From: Desulfurococcales archaeon
GTDB taxonomy: Archaea > Thermoproteota > Thermoprotei_A > Sulfolobales > Ignisphaeraceae
Assembly: GCA_028275745.1 (NCBI GenBank)
Contig: JAPWUB010000003.1
Span: 1-40,011 of the forward strand
Length of the DNA stretch: 40,011 bases
Reading direction: 5' to 3'
Shown in pieces: positions 20,277 to 36,862 of the stretch (positions within the stretch are counted from its first letter, which is position 1; each line of letters opens with the position of its first letter). Under the pieces are notes generated by a model. That model was not told where the DNA came from, did no database searches, and was given only the letters and a program-made list of their open reading frames with translations. The position numbers and the translations under genes are program-made.

Positions 20277-20379
20277 GCCGCGGTAGTATAGCCCGGTCAA
20301 GTATGCGGGCCTCTCGAGCCCGTGACGCCAGCTAATTGGAATGGCGCGGGAGACCCGGGTTCAAATCCCGGCCGCGGCA
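20277..20379 (+). tRNA. tRNA-Glu(CTC) with a 28-nt intron in the variable loop (about 20325..20352)
   Basis: gccgcgg/ccgcggc acceptor; arm CGGGC-CTCTCGA-GCCCG; bulge-helix-bulge CCCG[TGA]CGCC...GGCG CGGG[AGA]; splicing leaves a TGAC variable loop as in the tRNA-Gln here; TATA-like gcttttaaga upstream. Confidence 0.94.
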
Positions 20380-21069: not shown

Positions 21070-21132
21070 GGTTATCAGCGCTTTGGCCCCACATCATGAC
21101 ATCAGAGTTTAGCGTGGTCATCACACTTTGTT
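21070..21132 (-). ncRNA. C/D box sRNA candidate; D guide predicted to target U34 of tRNA-Gln(UUG)
   Basis: Minus strand: GTGATGA(C)-ccacgctaaact-CTGA(D')-tgtc-ATGATGT(C')-ggggccaaagcg-CTGA(D); both guides exactly 12 nt; intergenic; TATA-like ccttttaatg upstream. Confidence 0.85.
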
Positions 21133-21281: not shown

Positions 21282-22130
21282 ATGGTTTTAGGAGCTGTTG
21301 TTATACAGGGTATTGGCAGAAATAGCTACATGATTATTAAGGTGAGAAAACTCATAGCATTGAAGAGGTCTCCATACCAAGAAATTATAATTGCAGAGAC
21401 AGATGATTTTGGAAAGGCCCTTGTTCTCGATGGATACATTCAAAGTTCCGTAAGCGATGAGTATATATACCACGAAAGCCTTGTTCACCCAGCAATGATT
21501 TTGCATCCTAATCCAAAGAGAGTACTGATACTTGGTGGTGGTGAAGGAGCAACACTTAGGGAAGTTTTAAAGCATAACACAGTTGAGGAGGCAACGATGG
21601 TGGATATCGACAAGGATGTTGTCGAACTTTCTAAGGAGTATTTGCCTGAGATGCATCAAGGAGCGTTCTTTGATCGACGTGCACGTGTAATCATAGACGA
21701 TGGAAAGAGATTTGTTGAAAGGGAGCTTGAAAAAGGGTCGAAATACGATGTTGTAATAATGGATCTTACAGATCCGTACTCTAGTGAGATAGCAAAGGAG
21801 CTTTACACCGTAGAGTTCTTTGAAAAAATTTCGAGAATTCTTAGCAATGATGGTGTTGTAGCTACGCAAGCAGGTTCAAAACATTTCTATGAAGATGTCT
21901 ATCTAGCGGTGCTCAACTCTGTTAAGCAATCATTCAAGTACGTATTAGAGTACCAGACATGGATCCCATCATTTGGTTATGCATGCAACTTTATAGTAGG
22001 GTCAAAAAGCATTGATACCTCAATACTGACCGAGGAATACATAGACAAGGTTCTTAAAGATAGAAATGTTACAACTAGGTTTCTAAATGGTAAGAGCCTG
22101 CAAGCATTGCTAAAGCTAGGGGTGTACTAA
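21282..22130 (+). CDS. speE: Spermidine/polyamine aminopropyltransferase
   Basis: RVLILGGGEGATLREVLKH, DIDKDVVELSKEYLP, DVVIMDLTDPY; strong SD-like gaggtga. Confidence 0.93.
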   Translation: MVLGAVVIQGIGRNSYMIIKVRKLIALKRSPYQEIIIAETDDFGKALVLDGYIQSSVSDEYIYHESLVHPAMILHPNPKRVLILGGGEGATLREVLKHNTVEEATMVDIDKDVVELSKEYLPEMHQGAFFDRRARVIIDDGKRFVERELEKGSKYDVVIMDLTDPYSSEIAKELYTVEFFEKISRILSNDGVVATQAGSKHFYEDVYLAVLNSVKQSFKYVLEYQTWIPSFGYACNFIVGSKSIDTSILTEEYIDKVLKDRNVTTRFLNGKSLQALLKLGVY

Positions 22131-29952: not shown

Positions 29953-30028
29953 AGCCGGGTCGTCTAGCGGCCAAGGATGCGGGGCTCTGGCCCCCGTGAC
30001 CGGGGTTCGAATCCCCGCCCGGCTACCA
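29953..30028 (+). tRNA. tRNA-Gln(CTG), CCA encoded
   Basis: agccggg/cccggct acceptor; arm CGGGG-CTCTGGC-CCCCG; TATA-like ttttataagt upstream. Confidence 0.95.
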
Positions 30029-36794: not shown

Positions 36795-36862
36795 AGTGTT
36801 GATCAGACTCTGGCGTCTTCCTCATCCTGGGCTCAGCGGTAATACCACTCATCATCTGGCTA
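36795..36862 (-). ncRNA. C/D box sRNA candidate; D' guide predicted to target the 16S rRNA 530 loop
   Basis: Minus strand: ATGATGA(C)-gtggtattaccg-CTGA(D')-gcccagg-ATGAGGA(C')-agacgccagagt-CTGA(D); both guides exactly 12 nt; D' guide complementary to CGGUAAUACCA. Confidence 0.87.

Follow-up and report, generated by a model that had tools for sequence, protein, structure and literature searches.

Does the intergenic DNA between a 96-aa ORF and a divergently oriented spermidine synthase gene encode a guide RNA, and if so, which nucleotide of which RNA would it modify? The window analysed here, i.e. the whole stretch of DNA, comprises 40,011 nt and comes from an archaeal assembly that is 75% complete. 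A first-pass annotation had proposed a C/D box sRNA with four boxes and two 12-nt guides on the minus strand, and all of these elements were found where it had placed them. The core of this canonical archaeal C/D box sRNA gene, delimited by a pattern scan and conserved in relatives, extends from box C to box D at 21075-21124 on the minus strand, with the organization GTGATGA-12 nt-CTGA-4 nt-ATGATGT-12 nt-CTGA; its sequence is GTGATGA-ccacgctaaact-CTGA-tgtc-ATGATGT-ggggccaaagcg-CTGA. Box C (GTGATGA, 21118-21124), the D' guide ccacgctaaact (21106-21117), box D' (CTGA, 21102-21105), the spacer TGTC, box C' (ATGATGT, 21091-21097), the D guide GGGGCCAAAGCG (21079-21090) and box D (CTGA, 21075-21078) thus follow the archaeal order C-D'-C'-D, with RUGAUGA as boxes C and C' and CUGA as boxes D and D', apart from box C', which ends in T where the consensus has A. 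The guides upstream of boxes D and D' measure 12 and 12 nt, within the 10-12 nt typical of this class. The strict four-box pattern occurs at this one site in the whole window, and neither it nor looser versions of it gave a match in 100 first-order Markov simulations of the window.

The surroundings of the gene offer several further elements. The 96-aa ORF has no Pfam match, and the spermidine synthase gene (speE) lies at 21282-22130 on the plus strand (PF01564, E = 6e-52). At 21169-21161 on the minus strand, i.e. ~40 nt upstream of box C, we noticed the TATA-like element TTTATAAAT, a possible promoter of the sRNA judging by its sequence and position. In the window's genome, no terminal stem flanking boxes C and D was obvious to the eye; GCGGG/CCCGC stems flank several of the orthologues (L056, L057). 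Rfam C/D family models scored below their gathering cut-offs at the sRNA, which is expected because these models are guide-specific. The methyltransferase of the box C/D machinery, fibrillarin, is encoded in the genome (PF01269, E = 7.5e-106).

The tRNA-Gln(UUG) gene, which the first-pass annotation had not seen but had assumed to share its anticodon arm with the CUG isoacceptor, was extracted from the genome (G000:C9:38868-38940). It reads GCGGGGCTTTGGCCCCCG and includes GCTTTGGCCCC, which pairs with positions 2-12 of the D guide over 11 nt and with 0 mismatches. Counted from box D, the guide leaves position 1 unpaired and contacts G31 to C41 through positions 2-12, with U34 opposite position 5, so that the nucleotide addressed by the N+5 rule is the wobble base, as had been predicted. 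When the full 12-mer target was searched for with at most one mismatch, the tRNA-Gln(UUG) gene was the only genomic match besides the sRNA gene itself, and tRNA-Gln(UUG) is the only tRNA that is perfectly paired over guide positions 2-12. The two nearest tRNAs share the unpaired position 1 and have one further mismatch each: tRNA-Gln(CUG), at 29953-30028 on the plus strand, mismatches at guide position 5 (base 34), which bears out the proposed discrimination between the isoacceptors and makes it the predicted non-target, and tRNA-Pro(UGG) mismatches at position 6. Among 200,000 shuffled guides, 297 (~0.0015) matched the tRNA set over 11 nt.

Conservation of boxes and guide, another point that the first-pass annotation had raised for checking, was observed in the genus and across the order. 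All 10 same-genus genomes contain the D guide and, after it, box D. Of 61 related genomes, about 40 have an exact copy of guide and box (GGGCCAAAGNNCTGA); the copy in G021 resembles coding sequence. A control matched to the CUG isoacceptor, GGGCCAGAGNNCTGA, was found in 3/61 genomes, which is chance level, and all three sites are without C/D boxes; the conserved guide is thus specific for UUG over CUG, and a paired guide for tRNA-Gln(CUG) was not found in the 61 genomes. About one third of these relatives lack an exact guide match; there the gene has been lost or has diverged, or it lies in missing sequence. The orthologues carry the upstream boxes C, D' and C' as well, and 13 orthologous loci of the window's family have speE as the divergent neighbour of the sRNA. 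When 85,488 species genomes were scanned for box C', guide and box D, 70 stretches were returned. Five of them come from elsewhere (Gemmatimonadetes, Rufibacter, Blastomonas, Iodobacter and Janthinobacterium), all others from Desulfurococcales, Sulfolobales or unclassified Thermoprotei/Thermoproteota records; the named records with orthologues from the same family as the window are mostly Ignisphaera and its relatives. The anticodon arm of tRNA-Gln(UUG), TTTGGCCCC, is invariant in most relatives in which it was found, and because it hardly varies, compensatory changes in guide and target are not available as an independent test. Two deviations in box D and box D' were observed along the way. 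In a more distant orthologue (L168, in G027) the same GGGGCCAAAGCT guide precedes a D box of non-canonical sequence, CGGA, and three same-genus loci (L053, L054, L055) have two CTGA boxes, ~9-13 nt apart, after the D' guide and before box C', which looks like a duplication of box D'.

That box-like motifs in intergenic DNA fell into this arrangement by chance has a vanishingly small probability, since the shortness of the motifs is all that speaks for it, while conservation refutes it and the synteny, the empty simulations and a perfect tRNA match predicted before the tRNA sequence was seen likewise argue against it. Taking together what was computed here, i.e. the box anatomy, the exact complementarity, the isoacceptor specificity of the pairing, the conservation, the synteny and the fibrillarin gene, we consider it very probable that the locus is an archaeal box C/D sRNA whose D guide directs the formation of Um34 on tRNA-Gln(UUG). 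Once transcribed, the sRNA would serve as the scaffold on which L7Ae, Nop5 and fibrillarin assemble; the D guide would base-pair with tRNA-Gln(UUG) over nucleotides 31-41, the ribose of wobble U34 would become 2'-O-methylated to Um34, and the single guide A opposite base 34 would discriminate against tRNA-Gln(CUG), with a presumable effect on the decoding of CAA and CAG. Guidance of Um34 on tRNA-Gln(UUG) therefore probably extends widely across the Desulfurococcales/Sulfolobales lineage, with a single base making it specific for the isoacceptor, and the UUG and CUG tRNAs-Gln would constitute a defined pair for testing how wobble-U ribose methylation affects CAA/CAG decoding at high temperature.

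Both the modification and this type of guide have a precedent. Um34 of tRNA-Gln(UUG) was measured by mass spectrometry in Sulfolobus acidocaldarius (Wolff et al. 2020, PMC7668247), the only organism from which it is known, and methylation of U34 and G18 of this tRNA was linked there to a predicted C/D guide, citing snoRNAdb and Ziesche et al. 2004 (PMC7668247). By description, the S. acidocaldarius sRNA and the one reported here are identical in target tRNA, nucleotide and guide class; they differ in organism and family, and the second S. acidocaldarius target, G18 of tRNA-Gln, has no correspondence to the D' guide of our sRNA. In Pyrococcus, C/D sRNAs likewise guide 2'-O-methylation of position 34 (PMC7994747), but in tRNAs other than tRNA-Gln, namely tRNA-Leu CAA, Leu UAA, Met and Trp (PMC7994747), and sR50 resides inside a tRNA intron, whereas the gene described here is free-standing and intergenic (PMC7994747). 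The Pyrobaculum C/D sRNA families of Lui et al. (2018), as far as they are described in the summary given in PMC7994747, resemble it in targeting tRNAs and in having one guide without a target. Because Um34 and a C/D guide for it have already been described in S. acidocaldarius (PMC7668247), the sRNA is less novel than first judged, and it is a well-supported further case of a modification and guide type known from Sulfolobus.

For the D' guide the first-pass annotation had named no target, and a clean one did not emerge from our searches either. Its core around GCTAAA is conserved in 15 family orthologues, and its best non-coding match in the genome is the D-arm of tRNA-Pro(UGG), AGUUUAGCUUGG, with U13 as the N+5 nucleotide. 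We leave the D' guide without assignment, with tRNA-Pro(UGG) as the leading candidate. A dual tRNA guide, in which the D' guide would also be functional and act on this D-arm, is nevertheless rather unlikely. The complementarity to AGTTTAGCTTGG amounts to 11/12 positions and is the best to any ncRNA in the genome, most family genomes possess this D-arm, and pairing at guide positions 2-7, 10 and 11 is seen in 15/15 family orthologues; however, position 9, the one constant mismatch, pairs in 0/15 and shows only C or T, a variation that a target G would accommodate, position 8 pairs in 13/15 with a mismatch in two orthologues, and U13 could not be documented as a methylation site. The D-arm of tRNA-Gln was rejected as a target, as positions 4, 10 and 11 never pair. 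No good match was obtained in rRNA, for which the 16S and 23S rRNAs of G025 and partial 23S rRNAs of G006 and G009 were available, while no 16S rRNA was recovered for the genus. When genus genomes were searched for GTTTAGYGTG or RTTTAGYRTG, the matches fell into unrelated, apparently coding or unannotated contexts without an Rfam match.

We rather favor, with some reservation, an orphan D' guide or one whose target RNA lies outside the searched set, so that the D guide alone would act on a tRNA. Among genus members neither of the two degenerate motifs has a conserved non-coding match, tRNA-targeting archaeal sRNAs often have one targetless guide (PMC7994747), and in many orthologues a hairpin occupies the site of the D' guide. 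What speaks against an orphan is the strong conservation of the D' core within the family, suggesting selection for something, as well as the composition of the searched set, which lacked the 16S rRNA of the genus and, with the genome 75% complete, contained an incomplete set of tRNAs.

The hairpins are found outside most of the window's family, where the segment separating boxes C and D' measures 19-33 nt in many orthologues, compared with about 12 nt, and most of these long segments fold into a hairpin. The hairpin of L056 reads ATGGG-GACCTCC-attgat-GGAGGTC-GC and that of L070 ATGGG-GCCCTC-gcca-GAGGGC-AT, and comparing the arms of the orthologues by hand revealed paired changes, e.g. from A-U to G-C. 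In a test against mononucleotide shuffles, 24/37 long D' segments folded better than at least 98% of shuffles, compared with 0/23 short ones, counts that include close relatives and are not independent. The orthologues in which a covarying hairpin replaces the D' guide are L052, L056-L058, L062, L069-L072, L163-L166 and many of L249-L318. In L273, L274, L279, L285 and L308 the 5' arm is kept and most of the 3' arm is lost, which points to the 5' arm as possibly also being under sequence selection. Whether these orthologues represent a structural variant of C/D sRNAs, with one working guide and a covarying folded second arm replacing the D' guide, we judge from their sequences to be an evenly balanced question; no prior description of such a hairpin was found in a literature search that did not extend to the most relevant papers. 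As natural variants, they could help to address whether an archaeal C/D RNP needs both guides.

Further RNA features were noticed in passing. At L179 and L180 (in G009 and G006, respectively), the 23S rRNA model matched in separate pieces and no 16S rRNA was found nearby, a pattern suggesting that the rRNA genes of the genus contain introns or are unlinked. Within the window, Rfam identified an intron-containing tRNA at 20277-20379 on the plus strand that ARAGORN had missed and that is, given its anticodon CTC, probably tRNA-Glu(CUC). A second C/D box sRNA candidate is located at 36803-36855 on the minus strand (ATGATGA-gtggtattaccg-CTGA-gccc-AGGATGA-ggaagacgccagagt-CTGA), and its D' guide displays an 11-nt pairing with the 16S rRNA 530-loop sequence CGGTAATACCA.
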